From NCBI RefSeq assembly GCF_000755285.1, contig NZ_BBMK01000006.1, positions 1 through 64,000 on the forward strand: 64,000 nucleotides of DNA, written 5' to 3'. Positions within the stretch are counted from its first letter, which is position 1. Each line of letters begins with the position of its first letter. Positions 4,135 to 59,361 of the stretch are shown piece after piece. The DNA comes from Nonlabens ulvanivorans. Lineage in GTDB: Bacteria > Bacteroidota > Bacteroidia > Flavobacteriales > Flavobacteriaceae. The position numbers and the translations under genes are program-made. The notes under the pieces were generated by a model, which did not search any database, was not told the DNA's origin, and saw only the letters and a program-made list of their open reading frames with translations.

Positions 4135-4889
4135 GATGTCTGATTTTTAAGAGATTCAAATTCTGTTCTGGCGTCGTTAAATGTATGTTCATTGAGTTCA
4201 AACTCTCCATACCAAACATAGTCATAGAGGTAGGATATTTTCTTAAAATGCTCTTTGAGTATAGGCTCGTTAAGTTCGCGATAATAGTCGGAATTTGTTT
4301 TTTGAAAATCCCAATCAATCTTCTTATTAGTACTCAACCACTTTAAGGCATCTAGATATAAATAGCGGACCGCATTTCTATAACTACCCGTGGCAACACT
4401 GTCTTTGATTAATTGACTTAAATCGATTTGCTCTATATGAGTTTCTTCCATATTAACGGTTGCTGCAACTCTTGCATTGCGCGTCAATAATGACTGAGCA
4501 CTTTCTTTAGAGAGTAATCTTACCAAAAAATAAATCCCTACAGCAGCCATTATAATAAAGATGAAAATCTTTAAAACGTCTGCCCAAAAAGGATTAATAT
4601 TTATGCCAAAGACATCACCTATCCAGTTAAACACACCGTTAAGAAATCTCGTGAAAAAGTTGTCACCTTCATCAGACACTTCATAGTAGAAAAAATCATT
4701 TCCGGTGTACTGCTCTCGTAAGTCATCACCTATATCCGGAATGTCCAGAATACGGTTATCGTAGTCTCGATTTAAGGTGTCCGTAATTTCTCGAGGACGT
4801 TCCTCTATTTTAGGAATGAGATCTTGTAGTGATTGCGCTTTCGCGAAAGCGGATATCAAAACAATCCATAAGAATACTAATTTTCTCAT
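4131..4889 (-). CDS. DUF4129 domain protein
   Basis: The 252-residue product has a signal peptide (MRKLVFLWIVLISAFAKA, then QS), an acidic periplasmic region, a membrane helix at about 104-125 (FIFIIMAAVGIYFLV) and a DUF4129-like helical C-terminal domain with RNAVRYLYLDALKWLS. The protein is usually encoded with MoxR, DUF58 and DUF4350, as here. The signal peptide end AFAKA is encoded by the palindromic repeat at 4836-4851, so this repeat copy supplies the A-x-A cleavage motif. It overlaps the gene before and the gene after by four bases each. Confidence 0.85.
   Translation of the reverse strand: MRKLVFLWIVLISAFAKAQSLQDLIPKIEERPREITDTLNRDYDNRILDIPDIGDDLREQYTGNDFFYYEVSDEGDNFFTRFLNGVFNWIGDVFGININPFWADVLKIFIFIIMAAVGIYFLVRLLSKESAQSLLTRNARVAATVNMEETHIEQIDLSQLIKDSVATGSYRNAVRYLYLDALKWLSTNKKIDWDFQKTNSDYYRELNEPILKEHFKKISYLYDYVWYGEFELNEHTFNDARTEFESLKNQTS
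4836..4851. repeat. Palindromic repeat inside DUF4129 gene
   Basis: CGCTTTCGCGAAAGCG has a perfect core. It is read on the minus strand as A-F-A-K-A at the signal peptidase site of the DUF4129 protein. Confidence 0.95.
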
Positions 4890-5821
4890 ACGTTCTCCCC
4901 CCCTATATTTTCAATACGAGAACGCAAATAAGTATTGTGTTTAAATTCATGTAAATTGAAATATACAAAAGCGTTAATGGTTTGCGACAACAATTGTATA
5001 AACATCAACATTAAACAAAACAGACTGATAACCACAACCAACAATATTTGACCAAAAACACTTTCATCCAGACTAGTCCCAGATTCTACCGTATGGAAAA
5101 TATAAACACCTACTAGTATAGCAGGTAATATGTTTAAAGCCATTAAAGCTATTTGAATGATAAGGCCTAACACAAAATTCACTCCTATCGCTTTCCAAAA
5201 ATTACTGAAAAGTAAATCCCATGCTTCCCTAAATGCTCCAAAAACGGTAGAATCCTCGTTATGTACATAACTGAATATGGTGAGACTGATCCAAGCATTA
5301 AATCCTAAACCTATAAAAATGCTTATTATAGAACCTAGAAATGGGATAAACGCTAGTATAACTTGAACTATAAAGTAAACGATATATAATCCTATGGCTA
5401 CTAGGCTACTAGAAAGATGCCGCCTAGATGACGTTTTGCTTTTTCCCAGGCATCCTTGCGTGGTATATTATTGACCTTGCGTTTCTCGTATAAACTGACG
5501 TAAGCACTGGATAATGTATAGTTAAGTAGGGTTGCTATTAACAAGACGATTATTAATAGAATAACTCCTAAACCGGTCATTAGTGCTGCAGATTCTTCTG
5601 CATTTGATCCACCTATAGAATAGCTGTTTTGTGCGATAGCAATAGCCACGATACCAGTGATCATTAAATAAACACTGATCAATATAAAGATGACAAAGAT
5701 GCCATTATACCCCCACAAACATATTGATGATTTCTTTAAAGTTTCCTTTAAGAAAATCAAAATATGCAGATATTATTCCGCCAAAATCCCTACGTAATCT
5801 GGGCTCTATATACTTCCTCAT
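4886..5821 (-). CDS. Polytopic membrane protein of the MoxR cluster, two frameshifts
   Basis: Three frames join into one protein of about 311 residues starting at ATG 5821 (MRKYIEPRLRRDFGGIIS). A run of five C at 5710-5714 shifts the frame; four would restore it. A base missing near 5400 shifts it again, and adding C gives IFLVALVAIGLYIVYF. The joined protein has about five or six membrane helices and ends IENIGGENV, where a run of seven G (4897-4903) encodes the Gly pair. It overlaps the SpoIIM-like gene by 32 bases and the DUF4129 gene by four. The family was not recognised beyond integral membrane protein; position suggests a part of the MoxR membrane module. Confidence 0.75.
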
Positions 5822-6772
5822 TTTTTCTTTTTAGGTAATTAGGATAAACAATGTAATATCCTACAATAATAACAGAACTCAATAACAAAATTGCATATTT
5901 AATAATCGATGGCATAAATGCATATCTAGTAACAAATCCCTCTATAAATCCAGCAACTATAAAAAGAGGTATCGTACTGATCAATACCTTAAGGCCCTTC
6001 TTTGCGCCTTTCACAAAAGATACCCGTCTAGAATAAGTGCCTGGAAATAATATAGAATTCCCCCCCATGATCATACCAGCAGCACCACAAATTACAATCA
6101 CAGACAGCTCTATAGTACCATGCAACATAATGACACTCCACGCTTCTACAGCGACATCTTCATTAGAGAACATCGCAAAAAAAGTCCCTACCATAATACC
6201 GTTATTAAACAATATATAGCCCGACCCTATAGAAGTTAAAAGTCCTGCTGCAAAGCACAGCATTCCTACTTGAATATTATTTTTAGTAATCCATAAAAAC
6301 ATACCTAGCGCACCATCATCTTGATATATACCTGTAGGATTGCCATTTCTTATATTTTCTAAAGTTTCATTTACATATCGATCACCTAATATTAATCTAG
6401 TAAAAGAGTCGTCATAAATAGTACTTATGGCTCCTATACCACTGCTACCATAAAAATAGCAAAGGCATAAAAAAGTGTACGTTGATGATCTGCAAAAAAC
6501 AAAGGAAACTCTGTCTTCCAGAAATCTACAATACGATTACCACTTTCTTTTTTATTAATATAAATCTTTTGATGTGCTTGACTTGCTAAAGAGTTTAAAT
6601 ACAGTAAAGTTTTACTTTTTTTGTAATAAGTTTGGGCAAATGATAAATCATTAGTCAATTGTATATAAAGCTCTGCAAGGTAATCTGGATTAATTTTAGA
6701 ATTTGAGTCCAGAGCCTTTTCAAAAGCCACCCATTTTTCCTTATTTTGCTTCACAAAAGCTGCTTCACGCAT
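5790..6772 (-). CDS. Stage II sporulation protein M (SpoIIM) family membrane protein, frameshifted
   Basis: The chosen start is MREAAFVKQNKEKW at 6772; a longer frame would run into the divergent RDD gene. The first part has a soluble helical domain and a membrane helix (FYAFAIFMVAV). The frame breaks near 6432, and adding one G gives VAVGIGAISTIYDDSF. The second part has four helices and the family signature LFPGTYSRR. SpoIIM acts in forespore engulfment in Firmicutes, but homologues are widespread in non-sporulating Bacteroidota next to RDD and MoxR genes, so no sporulation is implied. A run of seven C at 6060-6066 encodes an extra-looking Gly in MGGNSILFPG. Confidence 0.85.
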
Positions 6773-7531: not shown

Positions 7532-8140
7532 ATGGATTTTATACAAGTAATTGATTTAATGGGAACGGTAGCGTTTGCCATCTCTGGTGCTCTTGCCGCT
7601 TATAACAAGAAGTTAGATGCTTTTGGGATCATCATCATAGCATTTGTAACTGCTGCCGGTGGCGGTACCTTAAGAGATATACTACTAGGTGTTAGTCCAG
7701 TTTCTTGGATGACTAATATGAATTTAGTCTATACCATATTGATTTGTGTATTAGTCACGTTTATCTTTAGTCAGAAGTTGTTAAAACTGCGCAAGACACT
7801 TTTCTTTTTTGATACTATAGGAATCGGATTATATACCGTTGTAGGTCTAGAAATGGGAATCACTGCAGGACTACATCCGTTTATTTGTGTAACACTAGGT
7901 TGTATTACGGCCTGTTTTGGTGGTGTGATCAGGGATATACTAGTAAATGAAATTCCGGTAATCTTTCGTAAAAACATCTATGCGACAGCTTGTATAGCTG
8001 GTGGCGCGATTTATTTTATTCTTAGAAAATTTGATGCACCAGAAAACATTACCTTCATCGTATCGGGTATTTCTGTTATTGTGATTCGTATGCTGGCTGT
8101 TAAATTTAAATGGCAGTTACCACGTCCTTACCTTGATTAA
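7532..8140 (+). CDS. Trimeric intracellular cation (TRIC/YadS) channel family protein
   Basis: The 202-residue protein has seven hydrophobic segments and an internal duplication. Both halves carry the Gly-rich kink and charged loop: GGGTLRDILLG at about 47 and CFGGVIRDILVNEIP at about 130. This is the bacterial TRIC/UPF0126 arrangement, which forms trimeric K+/cation channels. Translation should be coupled to the RDD gene because the stop and start are adjacent. The length matches the family (about 200 residues). Confidence 0.92.
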   Translation: MDFIQVIDLMGTVAFAISGALAAYNKKLDAFGIIIIAFVTAAGGGTLRDILLGVSPVSWMTNMNLVYTILICVLVTFIFSQKLLKLRKTLFFFDTIGIGLYTVVGLEMGITAGLHPFICVTLGCITACFGGVIRDILVNEIPVIFRKNIYATACIAGGAIYFILRKFDAPENITFIVSGISVIVIRMLAVKFKWQLPRPYLD

Positions 8141-8166: not shown

Positions 8167-8184
8167 ACGCTTTCGCGAAAGCGT
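8167..8184. repeat. Palindromic repeat, perfect core, between convergent genes
   Basis: ACGCTTTCGCGAAAGCGT lies between the convergent TRIC and rhomboid genes. It is a full 18-base match to the repeated palindrome found through the window. Confidence 0.95.
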
Positions 8185-8203: not shown

Positions 8204-9076
8204 TTAATCCTTACCTGCTTTAAATAAAAAATCTTTTTCTGCTTTGCTTAGACTTTCATAACCGCTCGCAGATATTTTATCTAAAATAGCGTCAATTTTC
8301 GCTTGCTGTGTAGACTTCTCTTTAGAAGTACTTTTAGTAGATTTCTTATTGCGATAAACCGTTTTCATGGGCGCCTTCTTTTCCTTTTTAGGAGTCGATT
8401 TAAACATTGATTGAAACCAATCACCAACTGATGAGAGTCCTTTCAAAATATCAATACCATCACGAATTTTATGTGCGGTATAAAATCCAATAGCGATACC
8501 ACCTAAGTGTGCTAAGTTTCCACCGACATTATCACGAGCAAAAATACCAGCAATCGTCATCACCAATAAAAAGTAACCTATATACTTGAATTTTAAATTA
8601 AAGAAAATCAATCGCACCTCTGTATCTGGCTGATATGAGCATACAAATAAGGCTACTGCATAAACACCAGCACTTGCTCCTACTAATCCAGCTGAATTTA
8701 CATAGGTAGAAAACAAGCTTTCGCCTAATAAATAAAAAGCAGCTCCACTTAAAACACCTGCAAAGAATAAAGTGATTAGTTGACGACTATTAAAAAAATT
8801 AAGCATCATCTGTCCAAAACTGAACAGTATCAACATATTCCAAAATAAATGAAAAATACCGGAATGTAAAAAGGCATAGGTTATAATGGACCACGGTTGC
8901 AATAAAGTCTCCCATAAACCTGGTGGTAATCTGAACCAGTAGTATGATGGCGCATATACATATTGTAGTAACCACGACACTAAAGTCAAGGCTACAATGA
9001 CAACAATTAATTGACCTAATGCTGTTTGCTGTGCATACTTACTTTTTAAATCATCTATAAAATTCATTAATCCCAA
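8204..9076 (-). CDS. Rhomboid family intramembrane serine protease with C-terminal extension
   Basis: This 290-residue protein has six membrane helices and a lysine/serine-rich cytoplasmic tail (about 215-290). The catalytic Ser is in GASAGVYAV, and the His is in NLAHLGGIAIG. The early HLFWNMLILFSFG matches the helix-2 HxxxN motif of rhomboids. The tail ends in a short helical module (ESLSKAEKDFLFKAGKD) seen in Flavobacterial rhomboids. It overlaps the preceding rhomboid gene by ten bases. Substrates are unknown. Confidence 0.93.
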   Translation of the reverse strand: MGLMNFIDDLKSKYAQQTALGQLIVVIVALTLVSWLLQYVYAPSYYWFRLPPGLWETLLQPWSIITYAFLHSGIFHLFWNMLILFSFGQMMLNFFNSRQLITLFFAGVLSGAAFYLLGESLFSTYVNSAGLVGASAGVYAVALFVCSYQPDTEVRLIFFNLKFKYIGYFLLVMTIAGIFARDNVGGNLAHLGGIAIGFYTAHKIRDGIDILKGLSSVGDWFQSMFKSTPKKEKKAPMKTVYRNKKSTKSTSKEKSTQQAKIDAILDKISASGYESLSKAEKDFLFKAGKD

Positions 9077-12016: not shown

Positions 12017-12034
12017 ACGCTTTCGCGAAAGCGT
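12017..12034. repeat. Palindromic repeat, perfect core, between divergent genes
   Basis: ACGCTTTCGCGAAAGCGT lies in the intergenic region between the mutL operon and the divergent subtilase gene, about 96 bases before the latter's start. Confidence 0.95.
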
Positions 12035-12129: not shown

Positions 12130-15100
12130 ATGATTCTAACCAGCCCTTTTAATAGTATCGTTAAAACGACTTTCTCATTTTTAATCATTTGCTTTAGTAC
12201 GTTCTCTTTTTCTCAAGACTCTTATCCCATAGGTTTTCAAGGAGATATAATTACCATGGATTCTAACATCGATAGTTTTCAATGGTCAGAATATCCATTA
12301 AGTAGTATAGTAAAAAATAAATTTACTGGATGGATACAGTTTGCACAAACACCTACTTACACAGTTCAACAAGAATTAAAAGCTGCAGGAATTACACTTG
12401 AAGCTTATCTACCACATAGAACTTATGCTTTTACAGCATCGCAAGAAATAAGTCCTTTGTTTTTAAAGCAAAAAGGTGTTATTACAGTTATACCTTATGA
12501 TAATCGTATGAAATTATCACATGATCTTAAAAATGAAACCATTGGTGATTGGGCCATTCGTGGAGATAAAGTGCTTATTCAAATTCAATATTTTAAAACA
12601 CTTACTCCAGAAGAAATTAGTGTAAACTTAAAAAATGATAGTATTGAAATTTTAGAAATATTCTCCACTGGCCATATTGTAATAGTTGCGATCGACAATG
12701 ATCGTATCAATGCTATTGCCTCACACAACTATGTACAATACATGGACATTATCATACCACCATCCATTAAAGAAGATACTGATGGTAGAGGTTTACATAG
12801 GTCTAATAATCTAGACACGCAACAAGTAGGTGGAAGAAACTACACTGGTGCTGGCATTGGTGTTCTAGTAAGAGATGATGGAATTGTTGGACCGCATATC
12901 GATTTTGAAGGCCGCATAGATAACACACAGGCTAGCGGTACAGGACAAACACATGGTGATGGCGTTGCAGGAATTCTAGCTGGTGCTGGAAACCTCAATC
13001 CAGAAAATCGTGGAATGGCAGCTGGATCAAATGTCTATGTCTCTAATTACGCGTCATCTTTTCTAGACGGGACAACTACTTCACTTATCGCAAGTGGAGA
13101 TGTCCAGATTACCAACTCTTCTTATGGAAATGGATGTAACGCAGGTTATACTATAACTGCAAACACAGTAGATTCTCAAATTAATAGTACACCTACTTTA
13201 TTACATGTATTTTCTGCAGGAAATTCTAATGGATCTGATTGCGGATATGGTGCTGGTGGTCAATGGGGAAATATAACGGGTGGACACAAACAAGGTAAAA
13301 ATGTAATTGCAACTGCAAATGTAAATGATGACGGTACTCTTGCCGGTAGCAGTAGTAATGGACCTGCTACAGATGGCCGTATCAAGCCAGATATTACAGC
13401 TCACGGGCAAGGTCACATATCAACTGATGAAGACAACGGTTATTTATCTTTTGGAGGAACCTCAGGTGCTGCACCTGGAATTGCTGGTGTTGCGGCTCAA
13501 TTATATGATGCTTATCAAACCATAGCAAATGGCGTTTTACCAGAGTCTGCTTTAATTAAGGCTATCATGCTTAATACGGCAAATGACGTGGGTAATACTG
13601 GTCCGGATTTTCAATACGGCTGGGGAATTGTAAATGGGTTAAGAGCTGTTAAAACTATTGAAGGACGTAATTTTTTTAGCAGAACGGTTTCACAAGGCAC
13701 ATCAGAAAGTCGTGTTGTTCCTGTACCACAAAATGCTTCACAAGTTAGAATAATGCTATACTGGAATGATCCAGCAGCTGCTACTGGTGTTTTAACAGCT
13801 CTAGTTAACGACTTAGATCTAGTGGTGAGTGATCCAGCTGGTTCTATTTACAATCCATGGGTTCTCAATAGCAGCCCAAATGCGGTGACTCTTAATGCTC
13901 CAGCTACTACTGGAATAGATCGACTTAATAACATGGAACAGGTTGTTATAGATAACCCTATAGCTGGCGATTATATTGTGGACATTACTGGTTTTAATAT
14001 ACCTATGGGTATTCAAAAATTCTATGTGGTTTATGAAATAATAGAAGATCAACTGACCATTACATATCCTGATGGTGGTGAATTTTTAACACCTGGCAGT
14101 ACAGAATTTATTCAATGGGATGCTACTAATACTAGCGGTAACCTCTCACTAGAATATAGCTCTGATAATGGCACGAGTTGGAATGCAATCGCAACTGTAA
14201 GTAATACAAGTTTATTATATGAATGGACTGTCCCTAACGATGTCTCTGGTCAATGTCTAGTAAGAATAACAGATAGTATTGGTAATACAGACACTAGTGA
14301 AGCTGCATTTTCTATTGCACAAAGAGTGACAGGCCTTACGATTACGCAAGTTTGCCCGACATATATTAATGTATCATGGAACTCGGTGCCTGGTGCCACT
14401 TCATATGATGTGTACACATTAGGTCAACAATTTATGGAAGTAAATGGTAGCAGTTCCACTTTAAGTTATAGTATACCTATTACAAATATAAGTGATGCGC
14501 AATGGATCGCTGTAAGTGCTACTGGTGGTAACGGATGGACTAGTTTACGTACCAATGCCATAGAATATGATGGTGGTGGATTACTGAATTGCTCCTTGAG
14601 CAATGATTTAACCGTTGTCAGTATTATAAACACCACTGCAGATTTTCAAACCATTTGTAATCCTGGATCTATCATAGTATCGGCCAGTATAGAGAATCTA
14701 GGATCACAAGACCAATCTAACTTCACAGTATCTTATCAAATCGATAATAACGCAAGCATACAAGAAACCTATAATGGCACTCTTAATGCAGGCTCTTCTA
14801 TTTTATATAACTTCAGTACACCAGCAACTGTCACCGCAAATGGTGCAAGCAGGTTACGTGTTTGGGTAAGTATAGCTAATGATGAACAATTAGTAAACGA
14901 TGAAAAAACGCTTGATTATTTTGCTACAGCAACAAGTGAATCATTAGACATCGTAGAACCTTTTGATATAAATGGTGTACTACCTACAGGATGGATACTT
15001 GATAATCCAGATGGTACAACGACATGGACTGAAGAGTTGAATATTATAGGTAGTGATGGAAACCCAACGACAGCAGCATTTGTAGATGGTGCAAACTATA

Positions 15101-17212: not shown

Positions 17213-17230
17213 ACGCTTCCGCGAAAGCGA
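17213..17230. repeat. Palindromic repeat, variant with one mismatch
   Basis: ACGCTTCCGCGAAAGCGA lies in the divergent TPR/recF intergenic region, 44 bases before recF. It differs from the consensus by T to C in the left arm and at the last base. Confidence 0.85.
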
Positions 17231-17273: not shown

Positions 17274-18353
17274 ATGCATCTCGATTTTTTGAGCTTAGTA
17301 AATTATAAAAGTTTCGCATCTGCAGAATTTGAGCTAGATGAGAAGATAAATTGTTTTGTAGGCAACAATGGTGTAGGAAAAACCAACGTTCTAGACGCTA
17401 TTTATCATCTTGCATTTGCAAAAAGTTATTTTAATCCCATTACGATTCAAAATATCAAACATGACGAGGACTTTTTTGTCATCAATGGAAATTTTAATAA
17501 AAAAGATCGTCAAGAAAAAGTAGTCGTTAGTGCAAAAAGAGGTCATAAACGAGTCGTAAAACGCAATGGCAAAGCTTATGAAAAATTAAGTGAACATATA
17601 GGTCTGATACCACTAGTCATTATTTCACCAGCAGACCGAGACCTGATTATTGAAGGTAGTGATACCAGACGCCGTTTTATGGATAGCGTTATATCTTTAG
17701 ATAATCAAGATTACTTAAATCAACTGGTTACCTATAATAAGCTGATTCAACAGCGTAATGCTCTCTTAAAATATTTTCAAGCAAACCGGACCTTTGATAG
17801 AGACGGATTAGATGTGTATGATGAACAATTAATCTTACTTGCAACGTTTATACATAAAACTAGGGTAGAGTTTCTAGAGTCATTCACTCCTATTTTTAAG
17901 AAATATTATGCTTACATTTCACAAAGTGAGGAAGAAGTGAATATTTACTATAAGTCTGATCTTAATGATACAGTAGCAAAAGATGTGTTTGAAAAAGCAC
18001 TTCAAAAAGACATGCAGTTACAATATAGCAGCACTGGAACACATAAAGACGATTTATACTTTTTACTCAATGGGCATGCTGTTAAGAAATATGGTAGTCA
18101 AGGACAACAAAAAAGTTTTCTCACAGCTTTAAAGCTAGCCCAGTTTGAGTTTATTAAATCTCAAAGTGGTACAGTTCCTATTCTATTGCTTGATGATATT
18201 TTTGACAAACTAGATGAAAATCGCGTTTCTCAAATTATAAATATGGTGAATGATGAACAGTTCGGTCAGTTATTCATAAGTGATACGCATCCTGAACGTA
18301 CAGAACAAGTGGTTAAAGAGATACACCAATCCTATAAGATTTTTAAATTATGA
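17274..18353 (+). CDS. recF: DNA replication and repair protein RecF
   Basis: This 359-residue SMC-like ATPase loads RecA at single-strand gaps with RecO and RecR. It shows Walker [10 protein letters not shown] at about 30, the RecF signature [15 protein letters not shown] at about 122, [17 protein letters not shown] (ABC signature) at about 270 and Walker [13 protein letters not shown] at about 300. The length fits the family. The following lipoprotein gene overlaps its stop by four bases. It lies downstream of a variant palindromic repeat. Confidence 0.96.
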
Positions 18354-19060: not shown

Positions 19061-19078
19061 TGCTTTTGCGAAAGCGTA
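19061..19078. repeat. Palindromic repeat, variant
   Basis: TGCTTTTGCGAAAGCGTA lies between the convergent DUF721 and TamB-like genes. The central C is replaced by T in the left arm, so the palindrome is imperfect. Confidence 0.75.
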
Positions 19079-24622: not shown

Positions 24623-25326
24623 TGCAATTATTTTATAATTCTCAGTTAGATACAGAATCCACATCTTTCACATTAGATCGAGAAGAAAGCAAACATGTAT
24701 TTAAAGTTTTACGCAAGAAAATCGGTGATAACATTAATCTTACTGACGGTAAGGGCAATCTTTATCATGGAACTATCAATCACATCACTAGTAATAGATG
24801 TGATTTAGATATCGCTTTCGCGGAAGCGTATCCACCATTACCATATCAATTACATATAGCCATCGCTCCTACTAAAATGAATGATCGCATGGAGTGGTTT
24901 CTTGAAAAAGCAACGGAAATGGGAATTACTAGAATCACTCCTATTTTATGTCAACATAGTGAACGTCAAAAAATTAATCTAGACCGATTTGATCGCATTA
25001 TCGTTAGTGCGATGAAACAATCGCTACAATTCCATAAGCCAAAACTAGATGAGCTTATGAACTATGAAGAATTCATCAATCTTAACCTGAGCAGTCATAA
25101 GTTTATTGCACATTGTGAGGATGGAAATAAAAACCATCTTAAACAGCTTATATCTACTAACCAATCAGTAACAGTTCTAATAGGTCCAGAAGGCGATTTT
25201 ACACCTCAAGAAATTGAACTTGCTTTAAAAAACAATTTTAAACCTGTTAGTTTAGGTGCAACTAGATTGCGTACAGAAACCGCAGGTGTATATACAGCCG
25301 CGGCTCTAAACATCATTAACAATTAG
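24622..25326 (+). CDS. rsmE: 16S rRNA (uracil(1498)-N3)-methyltransferase
   Basis: This 234-residue SPOUT enzyme methylates U1498 of 16S rRNA. An N-terminal PUA-like part has REESKHVFKVLRKKIGD. The knot domain has IAPTKMNDRMEWFLEKATEMG, the SAM-site motif VLIGPEGDFTPQEI and the end SLGATRLRTETAGVYTAAAL. A palindromic repeat variant (24813-24830) encodes AFAEAY in the linker after the PUA-like domain. It is coupled to tsaD. Confidence 0.95.
   Translation: MQLFYNSQLDTESTSFTLDREESKHVFKVLRKKIGDNINLTDGKGNLYHGTINHITSNRCDLDIAFAEAYPPLPYQLHIAIAPTKMNDRMEWFLEKATEMGITRITPILCQHSERQKINLDRFDRIIVSAMKQSLQFHKPKLDELMNYEEFINLNLSSHKFIAHCEDGNKNHLKQLISTNQSVTVLIGPEGDFTPQEIELALKNNFKPVSLGATRLRTETAGVYTAAALNIINN
24813..24830. 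repeat. Palindromic repeat variant inside rsmE
   Basis: CGCTTTCGCGGAAGCGTA is read in frame as A-F-A-E-A-Y. One A is replaced by G in the right arm. Confidence 0.85.
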
Positions 25327-27401: not shown

Positions 27402-28565
27402 ATGAATTTAAAGCTGTTACAGCCTGTAGTGCGAGATTATTTAATGGAACATCTCCATGTTAATGCTGCTTCATTTCTTTTAAAGTCTCATCCCTTTGAA
27501 GGTATTAGTCCGCAAGAACTTACACAACAGCTCATTGGACTACAAAAAGCACGTTTAAAATTTGAATCACTTTTCAATAATGATCAAGTAATTTTCCCGC
27601 CTAAGCTAAACCTAGAACAAACCAGTTCTTGGTCTACCGCAATCTATAAAGCAAATCTGTTTAATGGTGAGAAAATGATTGATCTTACCGGTGGATTTGG
27701 TATTGATGTATCCGCTTTCGCGAAAGCGTATACCAACACCACACACATAGAACTTAATAAAGACTTACAAAAAATTGCTGCACAGTTATTTACTGCACAA
27801 GAATTAACCACCAAAAGTTATGCTGGTGATGGGCTGCAATACTTAACTGAAAGTACATCTATCTATGATTTAATCTATATAGATCCTAGTCGCAAAACCG
27901 ACACAAATAGTAAAGCGATACAGTTAGAAGATTATGAGCCTAATGTTATTGAAAATCTAGACCTACTACTTTCTAAAGGAAAGAAAGTGATGATTAAAAC
28001 ATCACCCATGCTAGATATAACAGCTGGATTAAAGCAACTTAAAAACGTTTGTGCAATACATATCGTCGCTGTAAAGAATGATGTAAAAGAACTTTTATGG
28101 ATTCTAGAAAAAGACGTAAATGAGGTCATTATCCATTGCGTGAATTTAGAAAGTCACCAGCATAATTTAGTATTGAATCATAACGATACCGCTAGTATTG
28201 AACTCAGTGAACCACTGGATTATCTTTATGAACCTAATGCTGCAGTAATGAAATCACAAGCTTTTGGTCACCTATGTGAAAAGTATGAACTTTCAAAAAT
28301 CGATCAAGACGCACATCTTTTTACTGGTAAAAAAAGCATGGACTTCCCAGGCAGAACCTTTCTTGTAGAAGAGGTTAAAGCATATAAACCCAAAGACATT
28401 AAACGCTCATACGCCAAAAGTCATCGCGCTGTCGTGACGAGAAACTTTCGCGAAAGCGTACAGCAACTGCGTACAAAATACCAACTCAAAGAACACGAGA
28501 CTGATTATCTTTTCTTTACTAGTGCCATGGGAAAACCTGTTGTAATACAAGCAAAGAAATTATAA
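27402..28565 (+). CDS. Class I SAM-dependent methyltransferase with THUMP-like domain
   Basis: The 387-residue protein has an N-terminal helical region, a SAM-binding motif MIDLTGGFGIDVSAFAKAY at about 90, an acidic strand THIELNKDLQ, YIDPSRKT at about 165 and a C-terminal THUMP-like domain (about 295-387). This architecture is a Bacteroidota family annotated as an RNA/DNA methyltransferase; the substrate is not known. Two palindromic repeats lie in the gene. One is at 27713 and encodes S-AFAKA-Y next to the SAM motif; the other is at 28445 and encodes FRESV. Confidence 0.88.
   Translation: MNLKLLQPVVRDYLMEHLHVNAASFLLKSHPFEGISPQELTQQLIGLQKARLKFESLFNNDQVIFPPKLNLEQTSSWSTAIYKANLFNGEKMIDLTGGFGIDVSAFAKAYTNTTHIELNKDLQKIAAQLFTAQELTTKSYAGDGLQYLTESTSIYDLIYIDPSRKTDTNSKAIQLEDYEPNVIENLDLLLSKGKKVMIKTSPMLDITAGLKQLKNVCAIHIVAVKNDVKELLWILEKDVNEVIIHCVNLESHQHNLVLNHNDTASIELSEPLDYLYEPNAAVMKSQAFGHLCEKYELSKIDQDAHLFTGKKSMDFPGRTFLVEEVKAYKPKDIKRSYAKSHRAVVTRNFRESVQQLRTKYQLKEHETDYLFFTSAMGKPVVIQAKKL
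27713..27730. repeat. Palindromic repeat inside methyltransferase gene
   Basis: CGCTTTCGCGAAAGCGTA has a perfect core and is read as A-F-A-K-A-Y directly after the SAM-binding glycine motif. Confidence 0.95.
28445..28460. repeat. Second palindromic repeat inside the same methyltransferase gene
   Basis: CTTTCGCGAAAGCGTA has a perfect core with a shortened left arm (preceded by AAA). It is read in another frame as F-R-E-S-V. Confidence 0.92.
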
Positions 28566-34886: not shown

Positions 34887-34903
34887 ACGCTTCCGCGAAA
34901 GCA
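34887..34903. repeat. Palindromic repeat variant, between divergent genes
   Basis: ACGCTTCCGCGAAAGCA lies between mazG and the divergent thioredoxin gene. One base differs in the left arm (T to C) and the end is truncated. Confidence 0.8.
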
Positions 34904-40039: not shown

Positions 40040-40176
40040 AGGTTAAAGATAGTCGTGAAAAATGGCAATTCCTTCCTTCTCGTTTCAATTTAACATGGGT
40101 TTAAAGTTTAGAAATGAGTAAAAAAATCTGTTTTAGGTGTAAACTGACCACTTTTACCGATAAGTTAATCAGAAAA

Positions 40177-40194
40177 TGCTTTCGCGAAAGCGTA
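40177..40194. repeat. Palindromic repeat upstream of ppa
   Basis: TGCTTTCGCGAAAGCGTA has a perfect core. It lies between the divergent VWA and ppa genes, 9 to 26 bases upstream of the candidate ppa -7 box, so it occupies the -33 region. Confidence 0.95.
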
Positions 40195-40202
40195 AACCAT
40201 AC

Positions 40203-40210
40203 TACTTTTG
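40203..40210 (+). promoter_or_regulatory. Candidate -7 box for ppa
   Basis: TACTTTTG matches TAnnTTTG exactly, 23 bases before the ppa ATG at 40233. The expected -33 position (about 40180-40184) falls in the middle of the palindromic repeat. Confidence 0.5.
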
Positions 40211-40232
40211 CAGCCTTGAAAAACAGAGAACT

Positions 40233-43485: not shown

Positions 43486-43674
43486 GGTCAATATTTAGAC
43501 AAGGTTCAAATTTTTCTGTTAAACGTATTTATTCTATATCTCAAATAACGATTAACAGCCTTTTTTAATAGATAAATCCTAATATATTATTGACAACAAT
43601 GACACAGAACTTTAAGTAGACTTTAAACTCTAATTTGAAGCGCTTTAAGTAACTTCGCAAGATTGCAAAAAACT

Positions 43675-46511
43675 ATGGCGAGACCTCAAGAATTTATTGA
43701 AGTAAAAGGTGCAAGAGCACATAATCTTAAAAATATAGACATTGATATTCCACGTGAGCAACTAGTTGTTATCACTGGTCTATCTGGTTCAGGTAAATCA
43801 TCACTTGCCTTTGACACCATATATGCTGAAGGGCAACGCCGTTATATTGAAACATTCAGTGCTTATGCACGCCAGTTCCTAGGTGGATTAGAACGTCCAG
43901 ATGTGGATAAAATTGACGGACTTTCTCCAGTTATTGCTATCGAACAAAAAACAACTAGTAAAAGTCCACGTAGTACAGTAGGAACTATTACAGAGATTTA
44001 TGACTTTTTAAGACTCCTTTTTGCCCGTGCTAGTGATGCTTATTCTTATAACACAGGTAAGAAAATGGTAAGCTACAGCGATGAGCAAATTCGTGACCTC
44101 ATCATAGAAGAATATAAAGGCGATCGCATCAATATTCTTGCGCCAGTAATCAATTCCCGTAAAGGACATTATCGCGAGCTGTTTGAATCTATTGCAAAAC
44201 AAGGTTTTGTAAAAGTACGTGTGGATGGTGTTATTCTAGACATTCAAAAAGGGATGAAGCTAGACCGTTATAAAACACACGATATTGAAATAGTTATAGA
44301 TCGTATTGTACCTGGCGATAATGAAGAAGATATTAAAAGATTGGATGCTTCCATAAATACAGCAATGTACCATGGGAATGATATTCTTATGCTGGTAAAA
44401 GCTGGCGATAAGGAAGGACGTTATTTCTCTAGAACATTAATGTGTCCAGAAACAGGTATATCTTATCCAGAACCTGAGCCTAATAATTTCTCATTTAATT
44501 CACCTAAAGGTGCCTGCCAAAGTGTAATGGTATCGGGAAATTATATCAAGTAAATCCAGATAAAATATTACCAGACCACAGCATTTCAATCTCTAAAGGT
44601 GGACTCGCGCCCTATCCTACCATGAAGAAGGATTGGATATTTAAGCAGCTGGATCTAATCGCTCAAAAGTTTAATTTTAAACTTACGGACTCCATAAATA
44701 AAATTCCAGAAGAGGCTATTCAAATGATTCTTTATGGTGGAAATGAATCTTTGGAAGTTAATTCTAAAGATTTAGGTGTAAAACGCAAGTATAAAATAGA
44801 TTTTGAAGGTATTGCAAACTTTATAGATCAAACGTTTACAAATAACGACAGCACCTCTTTACAACGCTGGGCAAAAGAGTTTATGGACCATATCGATTGT
44901 CCATCTTGTGAAGGAGCACGATTGCGCAAAGAATCGCTCTATTTCAAGGTTAATGAAATGAACATCGCGCAGTTAGCAAATATGGACATCGCAGAGCTTG
45001 TAGAATGGTTTGATGGTTTGGGAAGCACGCTTTCGCGAAAGCAAGAACAAATAGCAACAGAGCTCTTAAAAGAAATACGTGTTAGATTACAGTTTCTGCT
45101 AGATGTAGGATTGGATTATTTATCCCTTAACCGTAGTGCAAAATCACTTTCTGGTGGTGAGGCACAACGTATAAGACTTGCTACTCAAATAGGTTCTCAA
45201 TTAGTCGGTGTTTTATATATACTTGATGAACCTAGTATTGGACTACATCAACGAGATAATGAGAAATTAATCAATTCTCTAGAATCTTTAAGAGACACTG
45301 GTAATAGTGTGGTGGTTGTAGAACATGATAAAGATATGATTGAGCGTGCAGACTATGTAATTGACATAGGTCCAAGAGCAGGAAAATATGGTGGGGGGGA
45401 AATCATATCAAAAGGTACACCTGCCGAAATACTTAAACATGATACACTTACCGCTCAATATCTGAATGGTAAGCTAGAAATTGAGGTACCTAAAGTAAGA
45501 CGTAAAGGTAACGGCGAGAAAATATCTCTTAAAGGTTGTACAGGTAATAACCTTAAGAATGTATCGATAGATCTGCCGTTAGGTAAAATGATAGTGGTAA
45601 CTGGAGTATCTGGCAGTGGTAAATCAACCATGATTAATGAGACGCTCTATCCTATTATGAATGCTCATTTTTTTAATGGTGTAAAAATACCTAAGCCATA
45701 TAAAAGCATTAAAAATCTAGATGCGGTAGATAAAGTCATAGATATTAATCAAAGTCCTATAGGTAGAACACCACGTTCTAATCCAGCAACATATACTAAA
45801 ACATTCGACGAGATAAGAAGTCTATTTGCAAAAACTCCAGAGGCATTGATACGTGGTTATAAACCAGGTAGGTTTAGTTTTAATGTACTAGGTGGACGTT
45901 GTGAAACTTGTAAAGGTGGTGGATTGCGTGTCATAGAGATGAACTTTTTACCAGACGTTTATGTGACCTGTGAGACGTGTCAGGGAAAAAGATTTAATAG
46001 AGAAACTCTTGAGATACGTTATAAAGGAAAATCCATAAGTGATGTTCTTAACATGACTATTAATGAAGCGACAGATTTCTTTGAACCTATTCCAAAAATT
46101 TATCGCAAGTTAAAAACTATTAAGGATGTAGGTCTAGGATATATTACGTTAGGACAACAATCCACTACTCTATCTGGTGGAGAAGCACAACGCATTAAAT
46201 TAGCCAGTGAATTATCTAAAAGAGATACCGGTAATACTTTTTATATATTAGATGAACCTACTACTGGATTGCATTTTGAAGATATTAGAGTATTATTGCT
46301 AGTTCTTAATAAACTAGTTGAGAAAGGTAATACGGTACTAATTATTGAGCATAACATGGATGTGATTAAAATTGCAGATCATATTATAGATGTAGGCCCA
46401 GAAGGTGGACGTGGTGGCGGAGAAATTCTTGCTACTGGAACACCAGAAAAGGTCGCAAAACACAAAACAAGCCATACTGCACGATTCTTAAAGAAAGAGT
46501 TAGGGATGTAA
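43675..46511 (+). CDS. uvrA: Excinuclease ABC subunit A, frameshifted near 44521
   Basis: The start ATG at 43675 ([20 protein letters not shown]) is chosen over a TTG at 43663. UvrA recognises DNA damage with UvrB. The N-terminal ABC half has Walker [10 protein letters not shown]. The frame breaks at KGACQ; one extra A gives [20 protein letters not shown]. The rest has zinc-site [34 protein letters not shown], a second Walker [10 protein letters not shown], Cys motif [14 protein letters not shown] and the second [15 protein letters not shown]. About 945 residues. A palindromic repeat encodes TLSRKQ (45027). A seven-G run (45393-45399) encodes Y-G-G-G-E where a shorter Gly stretch is usual. 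Confidence 0.95.
45027..45043. repeat. Palindromic repeat inside uvrA
   Basis: ACGCTTTCGCGAAAGCA has a perfect core and is read as T-L-S-R-K-Q in the helical region before the first LSGGEAQ signature. Confidence 0.95.
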
Positions 46512-47387: not shown

Positions 47388-50209
47388 TTGAGAAAACTTA
47401 CGTTTATTTTGCTTTTGATGCTGTCTTGTATGACACAAGCACAGCATGCGCACCATATGATCGCTACTCTAGAATCAGAGTCTGATGTTTTACACATCAA
47501 GGACTCTATGATTGTAAAAAACGATAGTGATGTAAGCTGGGATAAAATAGTCATGCTGGATTGGGCACATGCTTTTAGTTCAAAAGATACACCGCTAGCG
47601 AATCGATTTGCTGAGGACTTTAAAAATAAATTTCAATTTGCTCCAGAAGATGATCGTGGTAAAACGGTCTTCAAATCTTTTACAACAAATTTAGATTTTA
47701 CTATAAAACGGCTACCTCAACAAGTTGATATTATCGAGTTGCTCCTTAATGAACCATTGTTACCTGGAGCCTCAAAAACGATTGCTTGGGAATATGATGT
47801 TGTGATACCAGAAGATGACTTTACAGGCTATGGTAAAAGCAGTATAGGTAACTATGCATTGCGATACTGGTATATTACACCAGCGGTATTTGATCAAGGT
47901 AAATGGCAATATTTCTCACATAAGGGAATTAATGACTACTATCCTGCGCTAGCCGACTACTCTATATCGTTGCACTTACCTACCTCACATCAAGTGGTGA
48001 CTAATGCTCCCATCATCACATCTGCATTAACAGATTACAAGAACAGTTACTTATTAAAAGGCAACCAACTAGCCCATGTAGAGCTTTACCTTGAACAAAA
48101 CCTTCAACGTTATAAAAACTTTGGTGTTCCTAAGTTAAATGTTACCACAGATATTGAAGATGGTGATGTACCACCAGAATTAAAAGCTTTATTTATAGAT
48201 CGTATTTCTGGATTTTTAAATGAGAAACTAGGATCATATGCTTATCCCAATATGCTTATTACTAACCGATATTACAGAGAAGATCCTGTATATGGTTTGA
48301 GCTCACTACCCGACTTTATTAATCCTTTTCCTGCTGGCTTTACCTATGAAATAAAAGTCATTAAAGCCATGACTAGAAAATGGTTAGAAAGCGGCGCTAG
48401 ATTACATCCCAGAGATGAAAACTGGCTACAAGATGGTATGATGGTCTATTTATTACAACAGTATAACGAGACCTATTACCCAGATTTAAAAATAGCAGGT
48501 AAGCTTAGTAATATTTGGGGGGGAATTAGAGGATTCAACATCACACAATTAGATTTTAATGACCAGTATAACTTTTTATACTTAAACACTGCTCGATTGA
48601 ATCTAGATCAAAGTATCACAACTAGATCAGACTCACTGGTAAAGTACAATCAACAATTAGGAATCATCAATAAAGCTGCTATAGGTTTAAAGTATTTGCA
48701 AGATTACTCTGGTAATAATTCTGTCGACCAAACGATTAAAGACTTTTATCAAAACAATAAGTTGAAATTATCTCACGTCAGTGATTTCAAAACTATTCTA
48801 GAAAGCAAAAGTTCTAAAGATATCGACTGGTTTTTGATGATTATATAACTAAATACACACGCATGGATTGGAAAATTAAGCGTGTAAAAAATGTGGGCGA
48901 TTCTGTAAAAGTATTTCTTAAAAACAAATCAGACAGAGATCTACCGATAGCTCTTTATAGTCTCGATAAAGATAGTATTGTTGAAAAAGTATGGATTGAT
49001 CATGTTGTCGAGGATACTGTAATTACGCTTTCGCGAAAGCGTGCTAACAGAATCTCTCTCAATTATGAAAAACTCATTCCAGAGTTTACTATGCATGATA
49101 ACTATAAGACTTTAAAGGGATTTGCTCAAAATAGACCCATTGAAATCAGACTTTTTAAAGACATAGAAGATGCAGAAAAGGCACAAGTGTTTTTAATGCC
49201 TGACATAGGATTTAACGTTTATGATGGTGTCACTGCAGGTGCAAGATTTTCAAATGGGACTTTATTACCTAAACCATTCAGGTATACTATAAAACCTACT
49301 TATGGTTTAAATTCTAATAAAATTGTGGGCTCTATTGGTCTTTCATACACTCATAATTTAGAAAAACATGATGAGAGTATCTACTTTGTGAGATATGGTG
49401 TGTCTGCAAATCGTTTTTCCTATGCAAACGATTTACTTTATCGTCGTGCCAGTGCCTGGCTTAATTTAGGTTTCAGACCTAAGGACTTGAGAAGTAACAA
49501 AAGATCCTTTCTTACCTTCAGAAATGTGCTCGTTGATCGAGATAGAGATCCTGCAAATCCAGTTAATGAACCTGATTATAATGTATTCTCTATCAATTTT
49601 AATAATCAAGATCGCAACTTTAAGAGATATTTCAGCTATAACGCAGGTGTTGAAGTCTCTAGCAGATTTAGTAAGGCGACTTTCAGAACACAGTGGAGAA
49701 AGCTGTTTAAAGATAATAGACAATTAAACATCAGATTTTTTACCGGTGCATTTTTACATAACGAGACTCAAAATGATGGAAACTTTTTCTCATTTGCACT
49801 AGACAGACCTACTGATTATTTGTTTGATTACAACTACTATGGTCGTTCAGATGAAAGCGGCTTCTTCTCACAACAACTTATCATTGCCGAAGGTGGTTTT
49901 AAATCACAACTAGAAACACCTTATGCAAACCAGTTTATAAGCACGGTTAATACATCATACAGTATCTGGAAATATGTATTTGCATATGCAGACGTAGGTC
50001 TTGTGAAGAATAAAAACACACCACTTGCAGGCGTTTATGACTCTGGATTGCGATTGAACTTATTGCAAGATTATTTTGAAGTCTATTTACCTGTTTACAG
50101 CAGTAATGGCTGGGAAGTAGGACAAGGCGATTATGATGAACGTATTAGATTTATAATTACGCTCGACTTAAACACACTTACTGGGTTGTTTACTCGTCGC
50201 TGGTATTAG
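47388..50209 (+). CDS. M1 peptidase-like protein lacking the zinc site, with outer-membrane barrel-like C-terminus; frameshifted
   Basis: A signal peptide (to about SCMTQAQ) is followed by an M1-like N-terminal beta domain. The peptidase region comes next, but where HExxH and the later E should be it reads IKAMTRKWLESGARLHPRDENWLQDGMM, so the three zinc ligands appear lost. The frame breaks near 48838; adding one T gives WFFDDYITKYTRMDWKIKRVKN. After about residue 600 the sequence becomes strand-rich with outer-membrane-barrel character (SIGLSYTHNLEKHDESIYFVRYG ... FIITLDLNTLTGLFTRRWY), ending in an aromatic residue. About 940 residues. A palindromic repeat encodes TLSRKR. The role is uncertain: perhaps a peptide-binding outer-membrane protein. 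Confidence 0.82.
49024..49042. repeat. Palindromic repeat inside M1-like/barrel gene
   Basis: TACGCTTTCGCGAAAGCGT has a perfect core over 18 bases and is read as T-L-S-R-K-R. Confidence 0.95.
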
Positions 50210-52682: not shown

Positions 52683-53545
52683 TGCATAACACAACATCTG
52701 CACCAGCTTGGAAACGTAAGATTCATGAAATAATTTATGAAGCAGACACACCTGCAGGTAAGTGGTTTGATGTTATACTATTAGTTCTTATTGTTATAAG
52801 TCTGGTATTAGTAATGCTAGAAAGTATACCTGGATTAGGTGAAAAATATGCTTTTGAGTTCATTACTGCAGAGTGGATTGTGACCATCTTTTTTAGTATC
52901 GAGTACATTTTGAGAATCATCTCAATTAATAAACCTACAAAGTATATTTTTAGTTTTTATGGGATTATCGATTTCTTATCGACGATACCATTATATCTTA
53001 CTTTTTTCTTTGGTGGTTTCAGTGCGTTACTTGCCGTAAGATCTTTGAGACTTTTAAGAGTTTTCAGAATTTTAAAAGTGACTAGATACATAGGTGAAGC
53101 AGATAAATTAAGTAAAGCTATAAAATCTAGTGGTCCTAAGATTGCTGTCTTTCTATTTGCAGTCATGGTAGTTTCAATCATTTTTGGAACGTTGATGTAC
53201 CTTGTTGAAGGACCAGAACATGGTTTTGATAGTATCCCTAAATCTATTTATTGGTGTATTGTTACATTGACTACCGTAGGCTTTGGTGATATTGCTCCCG
53301 AGACACCTTTAGGACAATTTCTAGCAACTTTAATCATGATCATGGGTTATGGAATTATCGCCGTACCTACAGGAATCGTGAGTGCAGAATATGCTCAAGA
53401 TCTAAAGAAGAAAAAAGATAACCTTGGATCTGAAGACCCTAACTATAGACATGTTAATACACAAGTCTGTCAAAATTGTCTAGCCAAAAAGCATCAAGAT
53501 GCTGCTCAATTCTGTCACAAATGTGGCTATCCATTACATGACTAA
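52682..53545 (+). CDS. Voltage-gated K+ channel-like ion transporter with zinc-ribbon tail
   Basis: The 287-residue protein has six segments. S4 carries [17 protein letters not shown] at about 122 and the pore filter [17 protein letters not shown] at about 197, so K+ selectivity is likely. A cytoplasmic C-terminus holds two Cys pairs, [20 protein letters not shown], a zinc-ribbon-like module at about 263-282. It overlaps miaA by eight bases. The tail may gate or assemble the channel; that is inference. Confidence 0.92.
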
Positions 53546-54457
53546 AAAAACTCTTATTGTTATTGTAGGGCCTACCGCAGTTGGAAAGACTGCTTTAAGT
53601 ATTGCTTTCGCGAAAGCGTATAAAACAGAAATAATTTCCTGCGACTCTAGGCAGTTTTTTAAAGAAATGACCATAGGCACCGCTGTTCCATCTAAAGAAG
53701 AACTAGCGGAAGCTAATCATCATTTATTCAAAATTTAAGCATTCATGATTCCTATTCAGTCGGAAATTTTGAAAGAGATGCTGTTAAATTACTAGAAGAT
53801 TTATTCAAATCACGTGACATAGTAATCATGGTAGGTGGCAGTGCATTATATGAAAAAGCAGTAACACACGGGCTAGATCAATTGCCAGAAGTTCCTGAAA
53901 CAATCAACGATGCTATCGAATTACTTTATAAGGAAGATGGTATTGAAGCTTTACAAGAGGAATTGAAAATGAAAGATCCTGAATATTATAATCAGGTTGA
54001 TTTACAAAACCCGAGAAGATTAATACGCGCCTTAGGAATTTGTAGAGCGACAGGGAAAACTTTTACTCAGTATCGATCTGGCGATAAGCAGCAACGAGAT
54101 TTTAATATTATTAAAGTAGGTTTAGAAGCTCCAAGACAAGAGCTTTATGAGCGTATTAATTCTAGAGTAGATATAATGCTCAAAAGTGGATTAGTTAAAG
54201 AAGCTGAAGCTTTATTTCCTTTTAAGAAACTCACTTCTTTAAAAACGGTTGGTTACCAAGAACTAATGGGCGTTTTTGAAAATAATTACGACCTAGAAGA
54301 AGGTGTACGATTAATTAAAAGAAATTCACGCAGGTTTGCAAAAAGGCAATTAACTTGGTATCGTAAAGATGAAGACGTCATTTGGTTTCACTACAAAACT
54401 CGCCACACAGAGATTGTGCAGCGAGTAAGTGAAAAACTTATGGACTTTAATATTTAA
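53538..54457 (+). CDS. miaA: tRNA dimethylallyltransferase, frameshifted near 53733
   Basis: The start [20 protein letters not shown] at 53538 overlaps the channel gene; a longer reading at 53499 is rejected. It shows P-loop GPTAVGKTA and [19 protein letters not shown]. The frame is lost after NHHLF near 53733; one extra A gives [17 protein letters not shown]. The remainder has [29 protein letters not shown] and the [13 protein letters not shown] signature. About 306 residues. MiaA adds isopentenyl to A37 of UNN-decoding tRNAs. The palindromic repeat at 53603 encodes AFAKAY near the P-loop. Confidence 0.95.
53603..53620. repeat. Palindromic repeat inside miaA
   Basis: TGCTTTCGCGAAAGCGTA has a perfect core and is read as A-F-A-K-A-Y, in place of the short helix between the P-loop and EIISCDSRQ. 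Confidence 0.95.
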
Positions 54458-55170: not shown

Positions 55171-55174
55171 AAGT

Positions 55175-58353: not shown

Positions 58354-58359
58354 GTGATC

Positions 58360-59361
58360 TTATTTGAAAAATAATTGAGGAAATTGACTCTTCTCTTCTC
58401 TCCCTAAAATATTCACATAAAAGAAAGATTTTAAAAATCCATAACCATAACCTGCAAACTGTATAATAACTGCAAACACAGAAAAAAGTCCAATTTTTAA
58501 TCCGTTTTTTATAGAACTATCTATAAAGATAAGAGAAAAATAAAAGCTTACTAAACAAAGTAGCCACGGATAACCTAACAAAAAAAATGTCATAGAAAAT
58601 GTTAGACCGACTACAAATAAACTAGGCAGCCAATATATGACTCTGGCTGTATCAGGATACCATTTATTTAGAATAACTCTGACCATTCCAAACTTATTCA
58701 CCTGTTTAAAAAACAACTTCCATGAAATACGTCTTTCATGATAAACAAATGCATCTTTTATCAATCTTGTACGATATCCCGCTTTCCATAACCTTATACT
58801 TAAATCAGGATCTTCACCAGGATGAATTTTTCCAAAACCTTGAGTAACCTCAAACGCTTCTTTACTCAAACCCATATTAAAGCTACGAGGTTGAAATTTA
58901 TCAAGTTTTTCACTACCTCCTCTAATTCCACCGGTCGTAAAGAAAGATGTCATACTATAATTTATAGCCTTTTGTAGAGGTGTAAAACTATCATGAGCAG
59001 CATCAGGACCGCCATAGCAATCAACATAATCTAATTCTAATGCTCTTTCGGCCGCTTGCAAATAACTATCCGGAAGAATACAATCACTATCTAAAATGAT
59101 AAAGTAATTACCACTCGCCTTTCTCATACCATAATTACGGGATTCTCCAGGTCCAGAATTAGATTTAAAGTAATATGAAATGTTTACGCTTTCGCGGAAG
59201 CGAGAACACACTGTCTCACAGGTTACATTAGAGCCATCCTCAACAATAACAACTTCAAAATCTTTATTGTAATCTAATTGAGAAATACTAAACAATAATT
59301 TCTCAACCTCATCTGGGCGATTATAAACAGGTACTATAAAGGAAAAATCAGGTTCTTTCAC
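58360..59361 (-). CDS. Family 2 glycosyltransferase
   Basis: The 333-residue protein has a GT-A domain: SFIVPVYNRPDEVEKLL, VVIVEDGSN, YFIILDSDC (DxD-type metal site reading D-S-D), PRSFNMGLSKEAF and GEDPDLSIRLWKAGY. A C-terminal membrane region of about three to four helices follows (about 230-310). It likely transfers a sugar to a surface glycan or lipid at the inner membrane. A palindromic repeat variant (59186-59202) encodes FRESV. It starts 68 bases from the end of the giant surface protein gene, with a terminator between. Confidence 0.9.
   Translation of the reverse strand: MKEPDFSFIVPVYNRPDEVEKLLFSISQLDYNKDFEVVIVEDGSNVTCETVCSRFRESVNISYYFKSNSGPGESRNYGMRKASGNYFIILDSDCILPDSYLQAAERALELDYVDCYGGPDAAHDSFTPLQKAINYSMTSFFTTGGIRGGSEKLDKFQPRSFNMGLSKEAFEVTQGFGKIHPGEDPDLSIRLWKAGYRTRLIKDAFVYHERRISWKLFFKQVNKFGMVRVILNKWYPDTARVIYWLPSLFVVGLTFSMTFFLLGYPWLLCLVSFYFSLIFIDSSIKNGLKIGLFSVFAVIIQFAGYGYGFLKSFFYVNILGREEKSQFPQLFFK
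59186..59202. repeat. Palindromic repeat variant inside GT2 gene
   Basis: ACGCTTTCGCGGAAGCG is read on the minus strand as R-F-R-E-S-V between the strand-loop regions of the GT-A fold. One base differs from consensus. Confidence 0.85.

Follow-up and report, generated by a model that had tools for sequence, protein, structure and literature searches.

We report that a 16-bp palindrome, CGCTTTCGCGAAAGCG, is repeated hundreds of times in the genome of Nonlabens ulvanivorans (Bacteroidota, Flavobacteriaceae). It was noticed in a stretch of 64,000 nucleotides, hereafter the window (contig NZ_BBMK01000006.1 of assembly GCF_000755285.1, positions 1 to 64,000 of the forward strand). We observed that the palindrome is abundant and uniform, has a symmetric core and flanks of distinctive composition, is regularly spaced and is confined to a limited range of lineages. 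As an explanation we prefer, at a probability of roughly 45%, that it is the site of a putative dimeric DNA-binding protein used for chromosome organization or self-marking.

Abundance and lineage range of the palindrome

Allowing at most one mismatch, we found the core TTTCGCGAAA 14 times in the window, where 1.94 matches were expected and the largest number in 100 shuffles was 8. The 20-mer with up to three mismatches gave 13 matches versus 0.00 expected. The nine perfect cores and five variants of the original prediction, which had been made from the window alone, were confirmed at their places, and all five variants differ by one base in the core. The extended consensus is the 16-bp CGCTTTCGCGAAAGCG, whose outer TA/TA is preferred and not invariant.

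A genome-wide count against background, set beforehand as the test of that prediction, returned 487 exact copies of the 14-mer GCTTTCGCGAAAGC from the window genome (3.09 Mb in 25 contigs, 87% complete) and none of the reversed control, far above a background frequency. Each of the 23 Nonlabens genomes searched contained 288–857 exact copies, with 728 in the whole of G402, a single-contig Nonlabens genome. Two genera outside Nonlabens, each represented by a single genome, are also rich (G190, 408 copies; G206, 857 copies). At least one copy was present in 80 of the 397 Flavobacteriaceae genomes drawn; more than 19 copies were seen only in the four Nonlabens genomes drawn, G190 and G206, and the other sampled genomes of the family had 0–19. 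Across the phylum, a 17-base form was found in 7 of 395 genomes drawn, 165 times on the forward strand of the window genome and at one place in each of six others.

The E1 dehydrogenase protein encoded in the window shares 97% identity with that of Flavobacteria bacterium BBFL7 and 78–84% with those of four Nonlabens records, which places the window in this genus. Among 80 named loci around the E1 dehydrogenase gene, five carried the 14-mer, all from BBFL7 or Nonlabens. A quick E1 tree placed G190 and G206 as sisters on long branches, apart from Nonlabens, though this is one gene and E1 alone leaves the species tree unsettled. Other iterated palindromes were sought in relatives at this one place: of the 80 loci, only four from Nonlabens and L103 had any 12-base palindrome at least three times, and the copies in L103 belong to a local inverted-repeat pair. 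The latter, a double inverted repeat around GCGAATTCGCGAATTC on a contig of Flavobacterium sp. PMG_227 (L103:20324-20500), is possibly a miniature transposable element. Our searches of the open-licence literature brought up no apparent description of the Nonlabens palindrome, whether by its sequence, in Nonlabens, or as an iterated or uptake motif in Flavobacteria or Bacteroidetes.

The palindrome is the centre of a nearly symmetric site

The shape and placement of the site were analysed in 1.6 Mb of G402, of which 14.9 kb were masked as N. The 14-mer was found there with 0, 1, 2 and 3 mismatches 393, 46, 25 and 73 times, respectively, compared with means of 0, 0.05, 2.6 and 46 for 60 composition-matched control palindromes. 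The core extends to CGCTTTCGCGAAAGCG, with C at −1 in 95% of the sites. From the symmetrised flank profile, we observed T at −2 to −4 and A at −5, followed by a GT-rich and C-poor composition to about −19 and a weaker signal to about −37. The apparent footprint is ~86–90 bp. The detrended T frequency of the flanks had its strongest period at 9.25–9.5 bp (a value given without significance test). Depletion of C/G in the left and the right flank was uncorrelated (r = 0.06), and the site is close to symmetric. In G190, 400 kb contained 52 exact copies together with near-misses at one (13) and two (22) mismatches.

Sites are evenly spaced and prefer intergenic regions

Using gene calls from a simple ORF (open reading frame) caller, we assigned 236 of the 393 G402 sites to genes and 157 to intergenic regions, so that 40% are intergenic versus 10% at random. 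The genic sites use all three reading frames (139/49/48), as had been claimed from the window, and are enriched near gene 5′ ends, 82 of the 236 lying in the first fifth of the gene. The intergenic sites were distributed over divergent (38; length share 24%), convergent (28; 14%) and tandem (91; 61%) gaps, with no marked promoter, terminator or gene-orientation bias among these 157.

The mean spacing was 4.1 kb and the smallest gap 566 bp. We compared the gaps with 2000 simulations matched for the genic/intergenic share. Gaps below 500 bp numbered 0 versus a simulated mean of 55, those below 1 kb numbered 12 versus 93, and the coefficient of variation of the gaps was 0.71 versus 1.03; none of the 2000 simulations was equally regular. 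In G397, among the first 94 listed sites of one contig, 5 of the 93 gaps were shorter than 1 kb, where 18 were expected.

Site density in G402 ranged from 15 to 32 per 100 kb over the sampled 1.6 Mb, with one site per 4.1 kb there and one per 3.9 kb in the rest of the genome. We saw no origin–terminus trend: between ~0.8 Mb, where the GC skew of the sampled half has its minimum, and 2.0 Mb the density was flat, with the terminus itself outside the sequence read. The four largest site-free gaps measured 33, 21, 16 and 15 kb. Except for the 16-kb gap, which contains 9.9 kb of N and was left out, they were inspected by eye on protein sequences, and we noted conjugation- and metal-resistance-like genes, a phage-like region and a polysaccharide cluster. 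The 33-kb gap (G402:C1:1282026-1315045, loci L315-L316), with its conjugation-like, tyrosine-recombinase-like and metal-resistance-like genes, is likely an integrated conjugative element.

Site positions are conserved beyond the background

The copies in the window are listed here by their 16-bp coordinates, with the state of the core and the location.

4836..4851: exact 14-mer core; within DUF4129 gene, 4131-4889, minus strand
8168..8183: exact; intergenic, between 7532-8140 (plus) and 8204-9076 (minus)
12018..12033: exact; intergenic, upstream of subtilase gene 12130-15732, plus strand
17214..17229: one mismatch, TTCCGCGAAA; intergenic
19061..19076: one mismatch, TTTTGCGAAA; intergenic
24813..24828: one mismatch, TTTCGCGGAA; within RNA methyltransferase gene 24622-25326, plus strand
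27713..27728: exact; within THUMP-like gene 27402-28565, plus strand
28443..28458: 14-mer with one edge mismatch; within THUMP-like gene 27402-28565, plus strand
34888..34903: one mismatch, TTCCGCGAAA; intergenic
40177..40192: exact; extreme start of inorganic pyrophosphatase ORF 40176-40775, plus strand
45028..45043: exact; within uvrA ORF 44622-46511, plus strand
49026..49041: exact; within gene 48863-50209, plus strand, without Pfam match
53603..53618: exact; N-terminal part of miaA, reading frame broken in the assembly
59187..59202: one mismatch; within GT2 glycosyltransferase gene 58360-59361, minus strand

The corresponding TTTCGCGAAA cores start at 4839, 8171, 12021, 17217, 19064, 24816, 27716, 28446, 34891, 40180, 45031, 49029, 53606 and 59190. 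By our recount, nine of the 14 copies are genic and five intergenic, one genic copy more than the eight first given. The copies at 27713 and 28443 share one gene and lie 730 bp apart.

Next, we compared site positions between genomes. Of the G402 sites, 44 of 393 could be aligned across the core to the 244 kb used of the window genome, at a mean background identity of 0.70. Among these, 25 were identical and 32 within one mismatch, compared with 3.7% and 11%, respectively, of random 14-column windows from the same alignments. At the protein level, where 42 of 58 window-genome sites tried could be projected, 35 fell within 3 nt of a G402 site versus 1 of 622 random positions. Site conservation exceeds the background in both comparisons, which is not the descent without conservation named beforehand as fatal to a function.

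Several window copies illustrate this. Those in miaA (53603) and in the GT2 gene (59187) are exact at the same place in 8/8 Nonlabens sequences compared. The copy at 49026 recurs at the same place with at most one mismatch in 7/8 of them, N. tegetincola having two mismatches; a G190 site aligns with it by DNA (window 49027) but by protein alignment is two bases off and in a different frame. The uvrA copy (45028) has an exact counterpart at its position in BBFL7, MAG97 (= G394) and N. antarcticus, the remaining Nonlabens sequences being unaligned there.

Two of the three window genes tested could be aligned across the site to motif-free genera, and in both the residues are replaced in place, with no insertion. 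UvrA reads LSRKQ in Nonlabens, whereas among the 25 rows displayed for other genera the R position is acidic in 24 (LSEKQ in 10). In these two genes, the sites appear to have arisen by in-place substitution. The use of three frames, the intergenic excess (40% versus 10%), near-identical sites within flanks of ~70% identity and these replacements support the view that selection acts on the DNA and not on a peptide.

We also noticed broken reading frames at two of these genes: miaA (window 53541-54457) runs for ~65 codons in one frame and then in another, and uvrA (window 43663-46511) may be split over two ORFs. Both breaks are probably errors of an incomplete genome assembly rather than real.

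Low-copy genomes and phages

To survey sites outside the motif-rich chromosomes, we retrieved 20 loci, 18 of which came from low-copy genomes, and inspected 13 loci from 10 low-copy genomes. Six of these genomes (G087, G078, G101, G215, G012 and G175) have sites in a common 405-codon gene resembling an outer-membrane channel, which adjoins an RND-pump-like gene (~1,250 codons) in at least G078, G101 and G012; plasmid records annotate the same region with efflux RND permease, multicopper oxidase and heavy-metal proteins. The remaining four carry a site or two each in different genes. The 16 exact sites of G076 are all confined to 78 kb of a single contig. We read the low-copy sites as DNA that probably came from motif-rich donors. 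The clusters were rejected as an origin cluster of parS or centromere type: six of the ten genomes place the sites in the channel gene, and an exact parS exists separately.

In four genera that are otherwise free of the palindrome, the channel gene has a pair of copies at a distance of exactly 933 bp (loci L017, L018, L021 and L023 of G087, G078, G101 and G215), and the same spacing is seen in G076:C3 and, with one mismatch, in G144:C15. The genus g144 (G144 and G329) has 6–9 exact and 17–20 one-mismatch scattered copies (L351, L352, L356, L357, L361 and L362). Some lie at matching spacing in both species, three of those in G144 belong to an island-like cluster, 6/6 checked are within ORFs, and the outer C−1/G+1 is often absent. 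None of the four projectable g144 sites coincides with a G402 site.

In the lytic Nonlabens phages P12024S/L, no site within two mismatches was found in 36 kb; as none is expected by chance in that length, this absence does not show avoidance. In the viral collection, where we used multi-site contigs only since single copies may be chance, some contigs among the matches listed have two or three sites separated by several kilobases. Genes for phage head or packaging proteins were identified on the contigs checked (L173, L207 and L143), and hence the site also occurs on phage DNA. The contig of L143/L165 encodes a phage transposase family member (phrog_310) and a terminase 56% identical to that of the Winogradskyella phage Peternella_1.

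A chromosome-wide protein-binding site as the preferred explanation

We propose that the palindrome would be the core of a symmetric protein-binding site of ~86–90 bp, repeated every ~4 kb along the chromosome. A dimeric, or higher symmetric, sequence-specific protein would occupy the 16-bp CGCTTTCGCGAAAGCG, and the same protein might contact, bend or wrap the GT-rich, C-poor flanks. Each site would serve several kilobases around itself; a close second site would then bring no benefit, which would lead to even spacing. Such sites could form a chromosome-wide anchor following the logic of matS or Noc sites, at about ten times the number of Noc sites and with no terminus bias. We infer a single dedicated binder, and a role in architecture rather than in uptake, recombination or supercoil control. 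A fuller version is more tentative: Nonlabens and two other Flavobacteriaceae genera may possess a new chromosome-architecture system, with an 88-bp symmetric nucleoprotein site every few kilobases, a lineage-specific reader, selection that put an arginine into UvrA, and spacing by fixed stretches.

Among the known systems, the sites of Noc, SlmA and matS (the last a 13-bp palindrome) are, like the Nonlabens site, palindromic and dispersed within and between genes. Noc has a 14-bp palindromic consensus, and its ~70 sites, like the 24–52 SlmA sites, are under-represented near the terminus (PMC4726725). The nucleoid or segregation protein site put forward by the original prediction survives in our preferred explanation, without a Noc-type paralogue or a terminus bias having been seen. 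The parS sequence (TGTTTCACGTGAAACA) is also palindromic with TTTC...GAAA, but its half-site spacing differs. The Nonlabens site was rejected as parS, since it has hundreds of copies genome-wide and G402 has a separate exact parS at 853236, close to where the GC skew of the sampled half is lowest. In G402, dnaA (1936455) and parB (2517477) lie far from this parS.

A number of observations weigh against the proposed binding site. No candidate for the binding protein was found. HTH_ParB, tested as a candidate family, gave one strong match in each of 28 genomes, with second, weaker matches in G402 (motif-rich) and in G017, G144 and G030 (motif-poor), and we saw no Noc-like ParB paralogue specific to the motif-rich genomes among the 28. 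Noc and SlmA sites are fewer and terminus-depleted, compared with 728 copies in G402 without such a bias. Flank AT content showed no 10-bp peak (again with no significance test), so that any helical phasing is carried by T alone. An orientation model of the 393 sites scored 17,523 bits versus 17,301–17,392 in five left-right-shuffled controls, a small excess due in part to the real data being the best of 10 starts and each control having one start; a weak direction of the site is possible. Copies in the window genome are less perfect than those in G402, with 44 exact, 14 at one mismatch and 5 at two in 244 kb, and the flank signature is weaker in G190. The flanks keep their composition and not their identity, base identity between species being no higher than background. 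Nine of the 44 aligned G402 sites differ at five or more bases in the window genome, one of them as a clean alignment gap. From G190 to G402, only 3 of 18 projectable sites (65 tried) share their position, versus 0 of 138 random ones, and in G397 two of the 93 gaps are shorter than 500 bp. Finally, an uptake or recombination signal could also account for the even spacing, the island-like gaps and the intergenic preference.

Alternative explanations

We ranked the alternatives behind chromosome organization or self-marking in the order of DNA uptake, a topoisomerase or repair site, and a HIP-type by-product, and favour this ranking. The palindrome might be a DNA uptake (self-recognition) sequence, whose carriers are preferentially taken up or recombined, so that copies accrue by selection or transformation drive. 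We consider this unlikely, though it ranks first among the rivals. The DUS of Neisseriaceae and the USS of Pasteurellaceae are likewise lineage-specific, tolerant of gene positions and present in hundreds of copies, and the Nonlabens site has the hundreds to thousands of copies in its own genome that define such sequences. Even spacing, 5′-end enrichment, T-rich flanks and the island-like genes in large site-free gaps also agree with uptake. In the same family, natural competence is found in Riemerella species, and R. columbina has a preference for DNA of its own (PMC7965970). However, DUS and USS are oriented, and uptake motifs are handled as oriented sequences in PMC2346458, whereas the Nonlabens core is a perfect dyad and its near-miss class is small in G402. 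Moreover, DUS and USS hosts take up DNA by type IV pili, while PF00437 (T4P/T2SS ATPase), the one family compared, had no match over the cut-off in 6 of 8 motif-rich genomes. The exceptions were G397 and G242, along with 1 of 20 motif-poor genomes (G017); weak sub-threshold matches were present in all 28.

Rather less probable is a very strong site for a topoisomerase such as gyrase, or for recombination or repair, where the spacing would reflect management of supercoils or breaks. Gyrase wraps DNA and phage Mu needs a strong gyrase site, and a near-symmetric footprint of ~88 bp, even spacing and copies on phage contigs, one with the phrog_310 transposase family member, would suit such a role. 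Against it, all 14 genomes compared, of both kinds, have two GyrA/ParC-type proteins of ordinary length, by copy number and ORF length. We know of no topoisomerase that strictly recognizes a 16-bp sequence, and sites of the Chi kind have a direction.

The original prediction took cyanobacterial HIP1 (GCGATCGC) as the closest analogue. In the model proposed for HIP1, DNA methyltransferase action and mismatch repair together yield the palindrome as a by-product, which would account for a highly iterated palindrome within genes (PMC4390886). HIP1 and the alternate HIPs are indeed lineage-restricted palindromes iterated in and between genes, and the Nonlabens palindrome is strongly over-represented genome-wide both inside and outside genes; in abundance the analogy is fair. 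However, HIP1 is a short GC-rich unit of ~8 bp at about one per kb, while the Nonlabens site has a flanked core of 16 bp and recurs about every 4 kb; the two sequences are unrelated, and one is cyanobacterial and the other from Bacteroidota. HIP1 is also proposed to have a cognate methyltransferase as partner, of a kind generally found where such a palindrome is frequent. We searched PF00145 (C5) and PF01555 (N4/N6) in 23 motif-rich genomes (21 of the 23 Nonlabens, G190 and G206). Each family matched in 13 genomes, 12 of the PF01555 matches being over the cut-off, and G405, G406 and G242 lacked both, leaving no constant partner in these families. TCGCGA outside the exact copies was found 199 times versus a Markov expectation of 201; TTCGCGAA was in excess (28 versus 10), as the unmasked near-copies would lead one to expect. 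A HIP-type origin is improbable in its cytosine-methylase form, which fails in the genomes without a PF00145 match, and m6A methylation may yet play a part.

An RNA hairpin, transcription terminator or transcription-factor operator is very improbable. From its sequence, the CGCTTTCGCGAAAGCG dyad could fold, whichever strand is transcribed, into an RNA hairpin of 6 bp closed by a CGCG loop, and convergent gaps hold 28 of the 157 intergenic sites versus 14% of the intergenic length. However, 236 of 393 sites are genic, and the divergent and tandem shares are near their length shares. On the sense strand of 38 genic copies with one mismatch, pair-breaking C·A (12) outnumbers wobble G·U (4), a count that may be confounded by codon constraint, as the C·A variant is synonymous in one frame. 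Least of all do we believe in a dispersed mobile repeat of the REP/MITE type, also a candidate of the original prediction: there are hundreds of dispersed near-identical copies, and nine sites were lost between G402 and the window genome, one as a clean gap, but two comparable genes show in-place replacement without insertion relative to motif-free genera, the flanks share composition and no longer repeat, and the spacing is regular.

Implications

Hundreds of mostly exact, evenly spaced and position-conserved 16-bp copies are a very clean signal of a chromosome-wide DNA-binding function. To our knowledge, chromosome organization, competence and recombination signals have been little studied in Bacteroidota. 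The palindrome may serve as a fingerprint of DNA that moved from motif-rich genera into others. Naming the binder would tell us if a bacterium can operate a specific anchor at even spacing along its whole chromosome, which HIP1 has not answered; taken from the sequences, the Nonlabens site points to a putative protein that reads the whole chromosome through it.

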